48,071 nt of DNA from an uncultured bacterium (GTDB lineage Bacteria; Patescibacteriota; Saccharimonadia; Saccharimonadales; Saccharimonadaceae), in contig CAIPOF010000019.1 of NCBI GenBank assembly GCA_903866605.1, positions 1 to 48,071 of the forward strand. Reading direction: 5' to 3'. The first letter of the stretch is position 1. Every line of letters starts with the position of its first letter. Shown one piece after another: positions 3,431-47,093 of this stretch. The notes below the pieces were generated by a model, which saw nothing but the letters and a program-made list of their open reading frames with translations, did not search any database and was not told the origin of the DNA. The translations under genes and the position numbers were made by a program.

Positions 3431-5170
3431 ATGAAGCATTTAGTTAAATATTTTAAACCATATATATTTTTGCTGATTATTTTGCTTTTTTTGGTTTGGG
3501 GCCAGGCATTTGTTAATCTGTCGTTACCGGACTATATGGCAAAGATTATCACTGACGGTATTGTCAAAAAAGATTTAGCGGCTGTCTGGAGCAATGGTGC
3601 TTCTATGTTATTACTTACCCTTTTGGGTGGTGTCTTTACTATTTGTGTCGGGTTTTTGGCTGCCAGGATATCTACAGGTTATGTCCGTCGACTACGAGAA
3701 GCAGTTTTTATGAAGGTGGAGCGGTTTTCGTTAAATGAGTTCAATAGTTTTTCTTCATCATCTTTGATTACTAGGTCAACAAACGATATGCAGCAAATTC
3801 AAAATGTCATGGCAATGGTCCTGAGGATGGCACTTTTGGCACCTTTTATGGGTGTGGGGGCAATTATCAAGGCCTATCAATTGGCTCCATCGATGACATG
3901 GATTATGCTAGGCGCAATAGGCGTGATGGTACTGATGATAATTTTATTATTTCTGGTTGTCATACCAAAATTTACAACTATTCAAAAACTTGTCGATAAA
4001 TTGAGTTTGCAAACTCGAGAAATGTTAACAGGCGTTAGGGTCATTCGAGCCTACAATAACGACGAAGCTCAACAAGAAAAGTTTGACAAAACCAACGTGG
4101 AATCAACAAGGTTAAACATTTTCGTAAACCGTGTCATGACACTTATGATGCCAATTATGACACTTGTCATGGGGCTGGCATCGATGGCTGTTGTTTGGCT
4201 TGGGGCATATTTAATAAATGACGGAAGTTTGCAAGTCGGAAGTTTATTCGCATTAATGCAATATGTTATGCAAACGATTTTCGCCTTCCTAATGATTTCG
4301 ATGATATTCATTATGGTGCCTCGGGCTGCGGTGTCGGGTCGACGTGTCAATGAAGTCCTGGCGACAGAGCCTACGATTGTTGAGTCACTATCCCCTTCTC
4401 ATTTGCCAGAAAAAATAAGCGGCGTAGTCTCATTTGATAAGGTCAGTTTTGGCTATGTTGGATCTGAACAACCAGTTTTATCAAATGTCTCATTTACCGC
4501 CGAATCAGGTCAAACAACGGCAATAATTGGTGGTACCGGTAGTGGCAAATCAACAGTTATAAATCTTATACCTCGTCTTTATGATGTTTCGAGTGGCTCT
4601 ATCACGATTGATGGCTTTGATGTTCGCAATTTGCCTCAAGCCGAACTGCATGATCATATCGGTTATATTCCGCAAAAAGCATCACTATTTTCTGGAACTG
4701 TCGGAAGCAACATCGCCTATGGACAACCTGGAGCAGATGAAAATCAACTAAAAAAAGCGGCGGCTACAGCCCAGGCTAGTGAGTTCATCAATGATTTGCC
4801 AAAAGGGTTAGATAACCCAATCTCTCAGGCTGGCAGTAATATATCTGGTGGACAAAAACAGCGTTTATCAATTGCCAGGGCACTTGTTAAAAAACCTGAA
4901 ATTTATTTGTTTGATGACAGCTTTTCGGCACTTGACCTTAAAACTGATTCTGCCTTACGCGCAGCGCTAGAAAAAGAAATATCAAAGGCAACCTTGATAA
5001 TTGTGGCTCAGCGCATCAGTACGATTATGCATGCTGATAAGATAATAGTTCTAGATATGGGAAAAATAGTTGGCATCGGAACACATAAAAAGCTTCTGAA
5101 AACATCCTCAGTCTATCGAGAAATTGCACAGTCGCAGTTGTCGGCCGGTGAACTTCAGGGAGAAATTTGA
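3431..5170 (+). CDS. ABC exporter half-transporter, degenerate-NBD subunit
   Basis: TMD plus NBD; Walker A GGTGSGKST, signature ISGGQKQR, Walker B LFDDS, H-loop position is Q (VAQRIST). Confidence 0.88.
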   Translation: MKHLVKYFKPYIFLLIILLFLVWGQAFVNLSLPDYMAKIITDGIVKKDLAAVWSNGASMLLLTLLGGVFTICVGFLAARISTGYVRRLREAVFMKVERFSLNEFNSFSSSSLITRSTNDMQQIQNVMAMVLRMALLAPFMGVGAIIKAYQLAPSMTWIMLGAIGVMVLMIILLFLVVIPKFTTIQKLVDKLSLQTREMLTGVRVIRAYNNDEAQQEKFDKTNVESTRLNIFVNRVMTLMMPIMTLVMGLASMAVVWLGAYLINDGSLQVGSLFALMQYVMQTIFAFLMISMIFIMVPRAAVSGRRVNEVLATEPTIVESLSPSHLPEKISGVVSFDKVSFGYVGSEQPVLSNVSFTAESGQTTAIIGGTGSGKSTVINLIPRLYDVSSGSITIDGFDVRNLPQAELHDHIGYIPQKASLFSGTVGSNIAYGQPGADENQLKKAAATAQASEFINDLPKGLDNPISQAGSNISGGQKQRLSIARALVKKPEIYLFDDSFSALDLKTDSALRAALEKEISKATLIIVAQRISTIMHADKIIVLDMGKIVGIGTHKKLLKTSSVYREIAQSQLSAGELQGEI

Positions 5171-16466: not shown

Positions 16467-18008
16467 TTATTTATATTCCCAAACAGATTGACTATCGCTG
16501 TCACGAAGAATTATTCCTGAGCCTAGAAGTTGGTTTCGTAATTCGTCAGCTTTGGCCCAATCTTTTTGATCACGAGCAGTATTTCTTTCGATAATTACAC
16601 GTTTGTTATCATCTGATATGTCAGGTGTTGATTCGATAAGTTGCAGTCCCAATAAATTGTCAATTGTCTCAATAATTTGCATTAAGGATTGCTGGTTAAC
16701 ATTTTTTAACTGCGTGCTTAATATATCGGAAAATGTATCATCAATGATTTTGAGAGCTTCGGGTGTGCCCAGATCATTATCTATGGCTTCAATGATTGCT
16801 TGTGGCGTCGCATATGAAGGTATAATTTTATTCGTTTGGTTCTTTTCTTCATCATTTTGAATAGTGTCATGCGTTTGATGACGAAAAGCCGCGATATTAC
16901 GCCAGTTGTGAAGACGGTTCTTGGCTGAGGTTAAGGCATCAAATGTAAAATTACCCTCGCTTTTGTAATGTCCCTGCAAAATAAACATACGAAAATCAAG
17001 TGGTGAAAAATTCTTTTCATGCAAATCACTGATTGTGTAGCCATTGCCCAGAGATTTACTAATTTTTGTCCCATCGACCTTCAAAAAATTATTATGGAGC
17101 CAATAATTGCTAAACCTAACACCGGTTGCAGCCTCGGATTGCGCAATTTCGTTAGTGTGGTGAACGGGTATATGGTCAATGCCACCAGTGTGAATATCAA
17201 GTGTATTCCCCAGTATATTCATGGCGATTGCAGAACATTCAAGATGCCAACCAGGAAAACCCATGGTTGGTAGATTATGGATTATAGATTTTGGATTATG
17301 GGGGTTAGGTTCAATTGAGCTATGAGATTGCAATTTGCTATAATCTATAATCGATAATCCATAATCTACTAGATCTCCTGGCGTTACCCACTCCATATCT
17401 CGTTTGGTGTCTGTTGGAGTAAACTTCCATAGTGCAAAATCACTTGAGTTTCGTTTTTCTGGGTTAAATTCAATCCTAGCACCGGCTCTTTGCGCATTTA
17501 TATCTATATGTGCAAAATCTGCATATGTTGGAAATTTTGATGTATCAAAATATATACCGTCATTAATTTGATAAGTATAGCCTTTATCTTTAAGCTTGCG
17601 AATTAAATTAATTTGATCAGGTATATAGTCAGTCGCCTTGGCAATATATTGGGGCTTAATCATACCAAATTTTTCCATGCCAATTATAAAATCATTTGTA
17701 TAAATTTTTGCAATTTCCCATGAGGTTTTACCTTCGCGTTTAGCTCCTTTTTCAAGCTTATCTTCGCCATCATCAGCATCACTAGTCAAATGTCCGACAT
17801 CGGTGATATTTATAACCCTTGTGATTTCGTAGTTATTTGCCATCAAAATCCTAACAAGCGTGTCCCAATATATATAACTTGCCCAATTTCCAATATGCAA
17901 ACTGTCGTAAACCGTCGGTCCGCAGGAATATATCAGGACTTTGTTAGTTGTTTGAGAGACAAACTCATCAACTCGACCAGTCAATGTGTTATGAAATTTT
18001 AGTGTCAT
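16467..18008 (-). CDS. cysS: Cysteinyl-tRNA synthetase with in-frame repeat-derived insertion
   Basis: YSCGPTVYDSLHIGNW, GFPGWHLECSAIAM, HTGGIDHIPVHHTNEIAQSEA, KISKSLGN. Confidence 0.95.
   Translation of the reverse strand: MTLKFHNTLTGRVDEFVSQTTNKVLIYSCGPTVYDSLHIGNWASYIYWDTLVRILMANNYEITRVINITDVGHLTSDADDGEDKLEKGAKREGKTSWEIAKIYTNDFIIGMEKFGMIKPQYIAKATDYIPDQINLIRKLKDKGYTYQINDGIYFDTSKFPTYADFAHIDINAQRAGARIEFNPEKRNSSDFALWKFTPTDTKRDMEWVTPGDLVDYGLSIIDYSKLQSHSSIEPNPHNPKSIIHNLPTMGFPGWHLECSAIAMNILGNTLDIHTGGIDHIPVHHTNEIAQSEAATGVRFSNYWLHNNFLKVDGTKISKSLGNGYTISDLHEKNFSPLDFRMFILQGHYKSEGNFTFDALTSAKNRLHNWRNIAAFRHQTHDTIQNDEEKNQTNKIIPSYATPQAIIEAIDNDLGTPEALKIIDDTFSDILSTQLKNVNQQSLMQIIETIDNLLGLQLIESTPDISDDNKRVIIERNTARDQKDWAKADELRNQLLGSGIILRDSDSQSVWEYK
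17271..17368. repeat. Heptamer inverted-repeat element (family 1) inside cysS
   Basis: Left arm TAGATTATGGATTATAGATTTTGGATTATGG and right arm CTATAATCTATAATCGATAATCCATAATCTA; arms about 27/31 complementary; period 7. Confidence 0.9.
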
Positions 18009-25993: not shown

Positions 25994-26395
25994 TTATACT
26001 AATTCTACTGTGGCGCCAGCTTCTTCAAGTAGTTTTTTGGCAGTGTCAGCTTCTTCTTTATTGGCTTTTTCTTTAACTGTTGAGGGAACGCTATCAACTA
26101 TTGCTTTGGCTTCACCCAAACCTAGTCCTGTGATTTCTTTTACTGCCTTGATGACAGCAACTTTTTGAACGCCGGCTTCTTTTAGGTTAATTGTAAACTC
26201 TGTTTTGCCTTCTTCGGCAGCAGGTGCAGCGTCGGCAGCAGGTGCAGCCACAGCGGCAGCAGGTGCAGCAGAGCTAACGCCCCACTCACCTTCTAGGTGT
26301 TTTACGATTTGACTTAGTTCGATAGCTGAAAGTTTATTCAGTTCATCAATGATTTTTGTTTGTGATGCGGATAGCTTGATTTCTTTATCAGCCAT
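25994..26395 (-). CDS. rplL: 50S ribosomal protein L7/L12
   Basis: [39 protein letters not shown], Ala-rich hinge. Confidence 0.97.
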
Positions 26396-26412
26396 GGTTA
26401 AATCTCCTTTAG

Positions 26413-26500
26413 TAGATTTTAGATTTTAGATTTTGGATTATAGCATGAGGAGTCGGACTTAGCGTCTGAGATTCTTCAATAATCTATAATCCATAATCTA
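26413..26500. repeat. Heptamer inverted-repeat element (family 1), intergenic rplJ-rplL
   Basis: TAGATTTTAGATTTTAGATTTTGGATTATAG ... AATAATCTATAATCCATAATCTA; period 7 arms; shares TAGATTTTGGATTAT with the cysS and prepilin copies. Confidence 0.85.
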
Positions 26501-26530: not shown

Positions 26531-27058
26531 TTAGATTGATTCAGTATGCGCAGATAATACTTGCGTAAATCCTCGTTGTACGCCGTTTGCAACATTAAGG
26601 AATCCTGTAAGTGGTGCTGCAATTACGCTGACTAATTGACCACGAAGCTGATCCTTAGTTGGCAAAGCAGCCAGTGCTGTGACCGTTGCTGTATCGTGTG
26701 TTGAGCCAGTGTCGTCAAAACCAACAATCAGTTTTAAGGCTGGGTGTGTTTTGGCAAATTTAGCTAGTATCTGAGCTGGAGCAACCTCATCTTCATCCGA
26801 AAATGCATAAACTAATTGTCCGGATAACAAACTAGTTTCAGCTGATTTAAACTTAGCATTAGAGCCAAGCGCTACTCGTACTAAACGATTTTTTGCAACT
26901 TTGATAGTAACATGGTTCTCGCGAGCCAATCCACGAAGTCCTTGCATATCAGCTACGCTAAGTCCGGTATAGGTCGCACCGACTGAACCTTTCGCCGAGG
27001 CAAATAATTCAGTTAATTCTGCAACCAAAGTGTTCTTTTTATCGCGTGTAATTGCCAT
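26531..27058 (-). CDS. rplJ: 50S ribosomal protein L10
   Basis: MAITRDKKNTLVAELTELFASAKGSVGATYTGLSVADMQGLR; start at 27058, the longer ORF runs through the leader. Confidence 0.93.
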   Translation of the reverse strand: MAITRDKKNTLVAELTELFASAKGSVGATYTGLSVADMQGLRGLARENHVTIKVAKNRLVRVALGSNAKFKSAETSLLSGQLVYAFSDEDEVAPAQILAKFAKTHPALKLIVGFDDTGSTHDTATVTALAALPTKDQLRGQLVSVIAAPLTGFLNVANGVQRGFTQVLSAHTESI

Positions 27059-27141
27059 AAAAATCCTTTCTTTGATTGATATTTTTTGTAAAGTTTCATC
27101 CGACCATATTGTAAATGTTCTAGACAGTTGCAAGACCAAAA

Positions 27142-27176
27142 TAAAAAAGTCTTTGGGCCTCGCACTGCCAAAGACT
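27142..27176 (-). promoter_or_regulatory. Attenuator terminator hairpin in the rplJL leader
   Basis: Minus strand AGTCTTTGG-cagtgcgaggc-CCAAAGACT followed by TTTTTTA, between promoter and rplJ start. Confidence 0.7.
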
Positions 27177-27273
27177 AAAATCGAAAAATGTATTGTATAC
27201 ACAATCCTAGGTAGTAAATTAAGTCGTTCGGTTATACTCACGACAGCTACTGTCTTTGGTAATGTCTGCAGGC

Positions 27274-27303
27274 AGTATAACAAATTTGTTCAGTCAATGT
27301 CAA
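27274..27303 (-). promoter_or_regulatory. Promoter for rplJ-rplL
   Basis: Minus strand TTGACA-N18-TATACT. Confidence 0.7.
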
Positions 27304-32438: not shown

Positions 32439-32527
32439 AGTAGGTGGTATATGGTAGGTGGTATATGGTAGGAGGTTATGCGCTGGCTTGAAGCTTGCCA
32501 ACTACTATCTACTATTTACTATCTACT
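32439..32527. repeat. Heptamer inverted-repeat element (family 2), upstream of rplK
   Basis: AGTAGGTGGTATATGGTAGGTGGTATATGGTAGG ... ACTACTATCTACTATTTACTATCTACT around TGGCTTGAAGCTTGCCA; period 7/14. Confidence 0.8.
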
Positions 32528-46046: not shown

Positions 46047-47093
46047 TCAATTACCTACACAGCGCACCGAAAACCCGTAGCCCTTGGCGCCCGCACTGCG
46101 GTACACCGTCGCGTAACCCGAGTTCAAGTAGCGCCCCCAAGCATTAGCGCTGGACTCCGAACTCGACCACAAGTGCGCGTCCGACAACAGACTGCCGAAG
46201 GACCCGTCAGTACTGCGGTAGCCGGCAAGCGGCATGCTTAGTCCTGAAGAACCAGCTGGTTTGAGTTGAGTGCCTTGGTCAGTCCCGCGCCAACCAGTAG
46301 CGTCGGCTGCTGCCTGAGTCATACCTAGTTGCATTTCTAGAGTTTTGTATTCAGCATCAGTTGGTATATGGCTGCCAACTGGACAAATGCCTTGCGCACC
46401 GGCGGTTATGACATATTGCATGGCTTCGTCCCATTGGTAAAGTCCTCCATAGGTTGTGCAGTTGGATTCAGTATTACCGTAACAGTATTTTTCTAATGTT
46501 GAATTGTTTGTTTGGGCTGTGACGCCTGTCACCATGGTACCGACATTTAGATTGGCTTTAGCCCAGACTTGGGTGCCGATAGCAAGCCAGTTAGTTGGGT
46601 CTGTGGCTACTAGTGAAGATATTGCTGTTGGTGATGAGTTATTGGTAATACTATAGACTGTACTGCTAGCTGTGTTTGTATTAGTTAATGTATATAGTGA
46701 ATTAGGACTTGCTAATAAATAGTCAAATCTATTCCCAGAGCTTGATTTAAGACAGTATTTAGTATCAGTTGTAGGAGTTGAGTCACGTGGGCATTTATTG
46801 GTATCAAGATCAACTGGATAAGCTCCATGGTCAATATAGTATAGGGCTATTTGTTTTTTGGCACTAGATAGATCAGACTGTAGGGCTGAGACAGTGGCTT
46901 TGGATGAGATGCCTGTGTAGGAGACTATGGTTATGGCGGCTAATACTCCTATTACTACTATGACTACTAGGAGTTCGACTATGGTGAAGGCTTTTTTGTA
47001 GATTATAGATTTTGGATTATCGATTATAGGAAATTTCATCCTGTTAGTAACTTTATTAATAAATGATAAATTCATATGTGTAAATACCCACAT
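46047..47093 (-). CDS. Type IV prepilin-like protein with C-terminal FISUMP/C-type-lectin-like domain, putative DGR target
   Basis: KKAFTIVELLVVIVVIGVLAAITIVSYTG; C-terminal LWSSSESSANAWGRYLNSGYATVYRSAGAKGYGFSVRCVGN; true start probably MKFPIIDNPKS. Confidence 0.85.
   Translation of the reverse strand: MWVFTHMNLSFINKVTNRMKFPIIDNPKSIIYKKAFTIVELLVVIVVIGVLAAITIVSYTGISSKATVSALQSDLSSAKKQIALYYIDHGAYPVDLDTNKCPRDSTPTTDTKYCLKSSSGNRFDYLLASPNSLYTLTNTNTASSTVYSITNNSSPTAISSLVATDPTNWLAIGTQVWAKANLNVGTMVTGVTAQTNNSTLEKYCYGNTESNCTTYGGLYQWDEAMQYVITAGAQGICPVGSHIPTDAEYKTLEMQLGMTQAAADATGWRGTDQGTQLKPAGSSGLSMPLAGYRSTDGSFGSLLSDAHLWSSSESSANAWGRYLNSGYATVYRSAGAKGYGFSVRCVGN
46050..46240 (-). other. Putative DGR variable region at the 3' end of the prepilin gene
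   Basis: A-poor, GC-rich stretch in an AT-rich gene; codons at predicted Asn positions are NNC/NNT (AGT, GGC, GAC, CAC, AGC, TAC, GCC). Confidence 0.6.
46999..47030. repeat. Single arm of heptamer family 1 in the prepilin leader-coding region
   Basis: TAGATTATAGATTTTGGATTATCGATTATAGG; shares TAGATTTTGGATTAT with the other copies. Confidence 0.85.

Follow-up and report, generated by a model that had tools for sequence, protein, structure and literature searches.

The question raised by this locus is what a hairpin built of tandem heptamers is doing between rplJ and rplL. The window, that is the whole stretch of 48,071 nucleotides analysed here, had earlier been read from its letters alone, and that sequence-only reading placed inverted heptamer arms in the rplJ-rplL spacer and gave them a possible part in L10:L12 stoichiometry. 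The arms are indeed there, at 26412-26500, when the sequence is read, and the locus is laid out as follows.

26412-26443, + strand: left heptamer arm, reading inward, G/T-rich (GTAGATTTTAGATTTTAGATTTTGGATTATAG; from the sequence)
26444-26477, no strand: loop of 34 nt between the two arms
26478-26500, - strand: right heptamer arm of the same hairpin (AATAATCTATAATCCATAATCTA; from the sequence)
25994-26395, - strand: rplL (L7/L12), the downstream neighbour (Pfam)
26531-27283, - strand: rplJ (L10) reading frame (Pfam and Rfam)
27133-27277, - strand: L10 leader (RF00557; Rfam, 49.8 bits against a gathering score of 44)

The rplJ-rplL hairpin and control of the L10:L12 ratio

Folded as RNA, the hairpin is strong and stable (z = -4.8), and a ribosome-binding site is situated just outside it. 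The search of the window against Rfam returned the L10 leader and one tRNA as its only matches, with none for the hairpin family. As the 5' part of the rplJ frame overlaps the L10 leader, the true start of rplJ probably lies further in than 27283.

Both the fold and the ribosome-binding site would suit a functional control element, acting as an RNase III site or a translation gate that sets the L10:L12 ratio, as would the spacers of two relatives: that of G002 holds a GATT-word hairpin like the one in the window's own genome (G000), and that of G007 a different heptamer hairpin (GGCTATT) at the same position. Against this, most relatives with a readable rplJ-rplL spacer are without the hairpin, the spacer being short in G008, G017, G003, G013 and G005. 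Given this mixture of short spacers and of hairpins that differ in word, the hairpin is not a conserved regulator. Furthermore, the L10 leader, the usual autogenous regulator of rplJ-rplL, is already present upstream of rplJ, and the same element occurs in cysS, in tsaD and in the leader of a pseudopilin gene, where it has no such role. A control function is thus very unlikely, and the suggested role in L10:L12 stoichiometry is not supported.

Set beside the window's hairpin, the hairpin loops of G002 and G007 (L084, L082) have a similar stretch in common (ATTAAGCC..ATTCC), from which a single old hairpin with a changed arm word may be read. In G012 and G009 (L079, L081) the spacer carries a conserved insert of ~130 nt with long complementary segments (GAGAGCCCAAG...CTTGGCGCGGAGTC) and no Rfam match.

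A dispersed family of heptamer arms

The 15-mer TAGATTTTGGATTAT occurs exactly at 17285, 26427 and 47006, the positions named beforehand, and at no other place within the window. With up to two mismatches there are 8 matches in the window against 0.46 expected, a count reached in 0 of 100 shuffles. Searched genome-wide, as had been proposed, the 15-mer has one more exact copy (contig C31:2194), the reversed control pattern having 0 matches, while (GATTATN)3, a looser pattern searched with one mismatch allowed, has 20 matches at 11 sites and 0 in controls. About nine further arm sites lie outside the window in a genome of 0.81 Mb, which bears out the idea of a dispersed, non-random family. Its limited size, like its gene content, points to a member of the Patescibacteria (CPR). 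The arms in the window other than those already listed are given below.

17270-17299, + strand: left arm of the second hairpin, which lies within the cysS frame
17338-17369, - strand: right arm of the cysS hairpin (RNA fold z = -5.1)
16467-18008, - strand: cysS, interrupted in frame by the element (Pfam)
46998-47029, + strand: single GATT arm in the leader region of a pseudopilin-like gene (46047-47093)
32440-32476, + strand: left arm of a second word-family (GTAGGTG GTATATG), nusG-rplK spacer
32502-32527, - strand: right arm of the second word-family (CTACTAT units; weak RNA fold, z = -0.4)

The three 15-mer copies are therefore correctly placed, with the one at 17285 lying within the cysS frame beside its own inverted partner and that at 47006 being a single arm. 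Their reported common orientation relative to minus-strand genes is uninformative for the paired copies, since the reverse complement of an inverted pair is the pair itself.

Reading the sites of the looser pattern gives the arm consensus (G)TAGATT-(WTNGATT)2-3-ATAG. About half of these arms have GTAG outermost, and unit numbers vary from arm to arm. GATT arms are either single or in inverted pairs with 16 to ~430 nt between them, and are located in intergenic spacers, in frame in cysS and in a gene which we take, from its translated sequence, to be tsaD, and in the pseudopilin leader. A third word-family, of GGCTATT units, is found elsewhere in the genome. Across 307 kb of the genome 24 arrays have a period of 7, against 1-3 each for periods 4, 5, 8, 10 and 11, and 13, 9 and 9 for the codon-related periods 6, 9 and 12.

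The cysS arm pair adds ~30 residues to a variable loop of CysS, which is short in several relatives. Same-genus relatives are missing the insert, their loop being either short or occupied by other species-specific inserts. In G023, G019 and G041 (L043, L044, L054) the inserts in this loop are rich in G+C, differ between species and contain a recurring peptide of the type RVA.SGA; they may belong to another repeat family. Elsewhere in the window's genome (L039:1488-1970, G000:C52) a heptamer pair encloses a 127-aa gene that has no Pfam match and is flanked by an ABC permease gene and serS; an arm occurs at the corresponding position in G002 and G013 (L011, L014).

Empty and filled sites

Empty sites in relatives, an earlier proposal for comparison, were found both as short rplJ-rplL spacers and as cysS genes missing the insert. 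A third site, between a sugar transferase and a glycosyltransferase gene, measures 14-16 nt from stop codon to conserved core when empty, as in the window's genome and no fewer than eight relatives, and 440-472 nt when filled, as in G003, G007, G004 and G018, where an element of ~426 bp carries a gene for IVP, the 23S-rRNA intervening-sequence protein also termed S23p (PF05635). The site is 94 nt long in G019, a short remnant that looks like the 3' end of the element, and in G034 and G056 the equivalent site holds elements with other words. The IVP proteins at this site are 48-82% identical among themselves, and their arm words differ, being TTGGCTA/TTGGAAT in three species and GGGAATA-like in one. 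With similar IVP and differing arm words at one site, the arms have therefore been rewritten in concert while the gene stayed. No target-site duplication is evident by eye at the rplJ-rplL or sugar transferase-glycosyltransferase sites, which are too diverged for a clean empty-site join. Among the genomes compared neither a transposition event nor a strain-level polymorphism was seen, which counts against a mobile element.

Arms that change word in concert at one site, together with unit numbers that differ between arms and the published indels, in steps of 7 nt, that separate close strains (PMC4679880), would also be expected from replication slippage combined with hairpin-templated copying (snap-back, quasipalindrome correction), a process that needs no mobile element and in which IVP would be carried along as a gene tolerant of hairpins. 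Slippage leaves the empty sites for whole elements unexplained, however, and further observations bear on it below.

Association of the arms with the IVP gene

In the window's genome the same arms bracket a PF05635 gene at C31:3745-4201 (arms L036:3745 and 4171-4201, gene 3788-4159, inverted score 42). The gene is identified as S23p/IVP by both Pfam (PF05635, 4.7e-37) and NCBIfam (TIGR02436, 7.6e-34), and the element is not in 23S rRNA; it lies between what we take, from translated sequence, to be the EF-P gene and an rpsR/ssb/rpsF region. S23p/IVP has mostly been described from rRNA inserts, as an uncharacterised ORF, and we know of no catalytic activity for it. Among PDB sequences it matches only 2GSC, a Xanthomonas protein that is itself uncharacterised.

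The arm word TAGATTA/TAGATTT is common to the C31 element and the dispersed hairpins, and the motif TGAGATT, at 26467-26473 in the rplJ-rplL loop, recurs at the inner end of the IVP element's arm. An inner AATCTC motif is likewise shared by the IVP element and the dispersed arms (6 of 26 arms, both window pairs included, against a background of 0.7%), although it is not fully independent evidence because it partly overlaps the inverted heptamer unit.

More widely, inverted 7-periodic arms, called at an inverted score of at least 22, surround 34 of 43 IVP genes. Among control ORFs the count is 44 of 1102, and among genes for Avd, a related DGR protein, it is 0 of 9. Within the order to which the window's bacterium belongs the figures are 9 of 16 against 24 of 512 control ORFs, and several of the cases below threshold still show arms by eye; in other phyla, whose genomes were selected for heptamers and whose control ORFs come from the same loci, they are 25 of 27 against 20 of 590. 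Both flanks are 7-periodic for 37.5% (order) and 74% (other phyla) of IVP genes, compared with 0 and 4.2% of controls. Arm-bracketed IVP genes occur in the order, where the bracketing arms use varied words, and in Cyanobacteria, Chloroflexi, Acidobacteria, Bacteroidetes and others.

In a set of plasmid IVP genes not chosen for heptamers, 8 of 12 have inverted arms and 3 are variants (L396, L397, L399), with direct heptamers in Pseudanabaena galeata and octamers in Picosynechococcus and Gemmatirosa. The plasmid genes are often inserted between operon genes (nrdB and nrdA, cas10 and cmr3, cas6 and cas4). Conversely, when genomes were picked by a heptamer hairpin, IVP scored over the cut-off in 28 of 30, and in 0 of 14 named controls. 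In G007 one word is common to the IVP arms and the rplJ-rplL hairpin, and words show only a roughly twofold excess in the genome that carries the matching IVP, a weakly positive result that for G000 is confounded by locus choice. A full IVP match was not found in G002 (only 89% complete), G008 or G013 despite their GATTAT arms, nor was IVP found in the phage collection; the GATT hairpin pattern occurs in 2 viral contigs and the permuted control pattern in 0.

On this evidence the hairpin at 26412-26500 is probably non-autonomous, a gene-less copy within a family of small selfish elements of the IVS type. A RAYT/REP-type transposase or another mobiliser had been put forward as the partner to look for, and what turned up is a candidate of the second sort, the PF05635 IVP gene. 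Mobilisation of the heptamer hairpins by a RAYT (Y1 transposase), as REP/REPIN-like elements, could draw on the presence, in the window's genome, of three Y1 genes 196-208 aa long, and on the many arms that begin GTAG, a tag also borne by some known REPs (PMC3733652). This start is absent from arms of other words, however, and RAYT was rejected as mobiliser when heptamer arms were found at 0 of 6 Y1 genes inspected in four genomes, most of which have palindromes of their own; such a role is highly improbable. The palindromes near the Y1 loci L106, L107, L109, L110 and L111 (G000, G002, G008, G013), for example TTGCAAGG...CCTTGCAA and TTAGAAGG...CCTTCTAA, together with the RAYT-like genes, are apparent REP systems in these small genomes.

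Breadth, periodicity and polarity

The inverted pattern GATTWTRGATTWT...AWAATCYAWAATC is present in more than 117 public-genome stretches, a minimum counted among the matches listed, from Cyanobacteria, Chloroflexi, Acidobacteria, Bacteroidetes, Planctomycetes and others, where ~0.1 would be expected by chance (specified bases counted, even base composition). The same listed stretches contain 193 period-7 arrays of other words, and period 7 accounts for 440 arrays against 29-39 for periods 6, 8, 9 and 12 in these loci, which were chosen for a heptamer. The G-rich arm is on the left in 43 of 47 scorable pairs of words other than GATT. As an inverted pair reads the same on either strand, neither the direction of replication nor that of transcription can be the source of this polarity.

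Slippage with hairpin-templated copying does not account for the dominance of period 7, for IVP being bracketed far more often than other ORFs, or for the polarity (43:4 in words other than GATT, unchanged by strand swap), and is considered unlikely as the origin of the arms. Convergent G-rich polarity would result if G-rich heptamers were added to both ends of a break by templated, telomerase-like 3'-end addition and the ends then joined head to head, and the existence of single arms would fit. No enzyme for this was identified, however, and in G004 an IVP element is present with no match to a reverse transcriptase; this origin is considered very improbable. A reverse transcriptase as arm source was rejected, as the genome's one reverse transcriptase adjoins an Avd-like gene and Avd loci are without arms (0 of 9). 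This pairing, seen in G000:C5 (L333) and in relatives, is probably a diversity-generating retroelement.

Proposed working of the element

For the preferred explanation, a selfish element of the IVS type with gene-less copies, the following working is proposed. The element would insert where a hairpin is tolerated, namely at gene junctions inside operons or, in frame, in variable protein loops, and its arms may supply ribosome-binding and start signals, or keep them intact, so that neighbouring genes remain expressed. IVP would recognise and bind the hairpin of heptamers, in the form of RNA or of single-stranded DNA, and promote its spread or upkeep by helping to copy or maintain it, in the way that RAYT does for REPINs. 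Heptamer units could spread along and between both arms, such that the word would drift in concert and come to differ between species at one site.

More broadly, it is conceivable, if somewhat doubtful, that IVP/S23p elements are widespread and largely unrecognised mobile elements with rewritable heptamer (sometimes octamer) hairpin arms of fixed polarity, mobilised or maintained by IVP, and that the heptamer repeats long reported from Cyanobacteria, Xanthomonas, Beggiatoaceae and others are gene-less copies. The literature searched, largely outside subscription journals, held no statement of a general link between heptamer repeats and IVP. Linking the two would give each a partner and make both testable, and would account for hairpins within operons and essential genes as selfish insertions that the cell tolerates, not as regulators.

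Comparison with known systems

RAYT-REPIN systems serve as a working analogy only, in that a gene is flanked by hairpin repeats and accompanied by many gene-less copies; they differ in their Y1 transposase and hairpins, and occur separately in the same genomes. The Rickettsia palindromic elements are hairpins inserted in frame in essential genes, as is the cysS copy; to our knowledge they are not built of heptamers.

Heptamer repeats are over-represented in bacterial genomes and have received little detailed study, with no agreed origin (PMC4692102). Several published ones, namely those of Nostoc trnL P6b, Xanthomonas GGGAATC and TAACTGA, may be of the same kind as the arms described here. TAACTGA repeats, known from Beggiatoaceae, Cyanobacteria and Bacteroidetes, resemble them in being heptamers across distant phyla, in ribosomal protein operons and sometimes inside ORFs, and a repeat-binding protein has been speculated to be the mobile element; unlike the present arms they are mostly direct and have a proposed translational role (PMC4679880). 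The P6b stems of Nostoc trnL are built of TDNGATT or NNTGAGT heptamers, the one kind having repeatedly taken the place of the other (PMC4476775). The Class I stems (TDNGATT) share with the present family the kind of heptamer (TTRGATT), the inverted stem pairs and the alternative words at one site; of the units found here TTAGATT and TTGGATT fit TDNGATT, while ATAGATT and ATGGATT do not. They differ in lying within a group I intron, and no IVP link was found in the passages of PMC4476775 consulted. In Xanthomonas, GGGAATC forms 70-75 convergent inverted pairs in each of two genomes, a likeness in both heptamer and arrangement, whereas these repeats and the Nostoc GGGGA(C/T)T heptamers are discussed as G-quadruplex formers that are generally not associated with mobile elements (PMC4692102). 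The only solved IVP match (2GSC, XCC0516) comes from Xanthomonas campestris (organism named in PMC4990558). The contrast drawn by the sequence-only reading, in which cyanobacterial heptamer STRRs are direct and the present ones inverted, falls away, as published heptamer repeats also pair inverted (PMC4476775, PMC4692102).

The 23S rRNA IVS of Leptospira and Coxiella are likewise elements with an S23p/IVP gene. That of Coxiella is described as a selfish element of 428 nt, compared with ~426 nt here; it contains an ORF for S23p, ends in inverted repeats that form a hairpin and has, beside the ORF, tandem GACAGAT heptamers in numbers that differ from strain to strain (PMC4990558). The published IVS reside in 23S rRNA and are excised by RNase III, whereas the elements described here lie between or inside protein genes and are accompanied by dispersed, gene-less hairpin derivatives.
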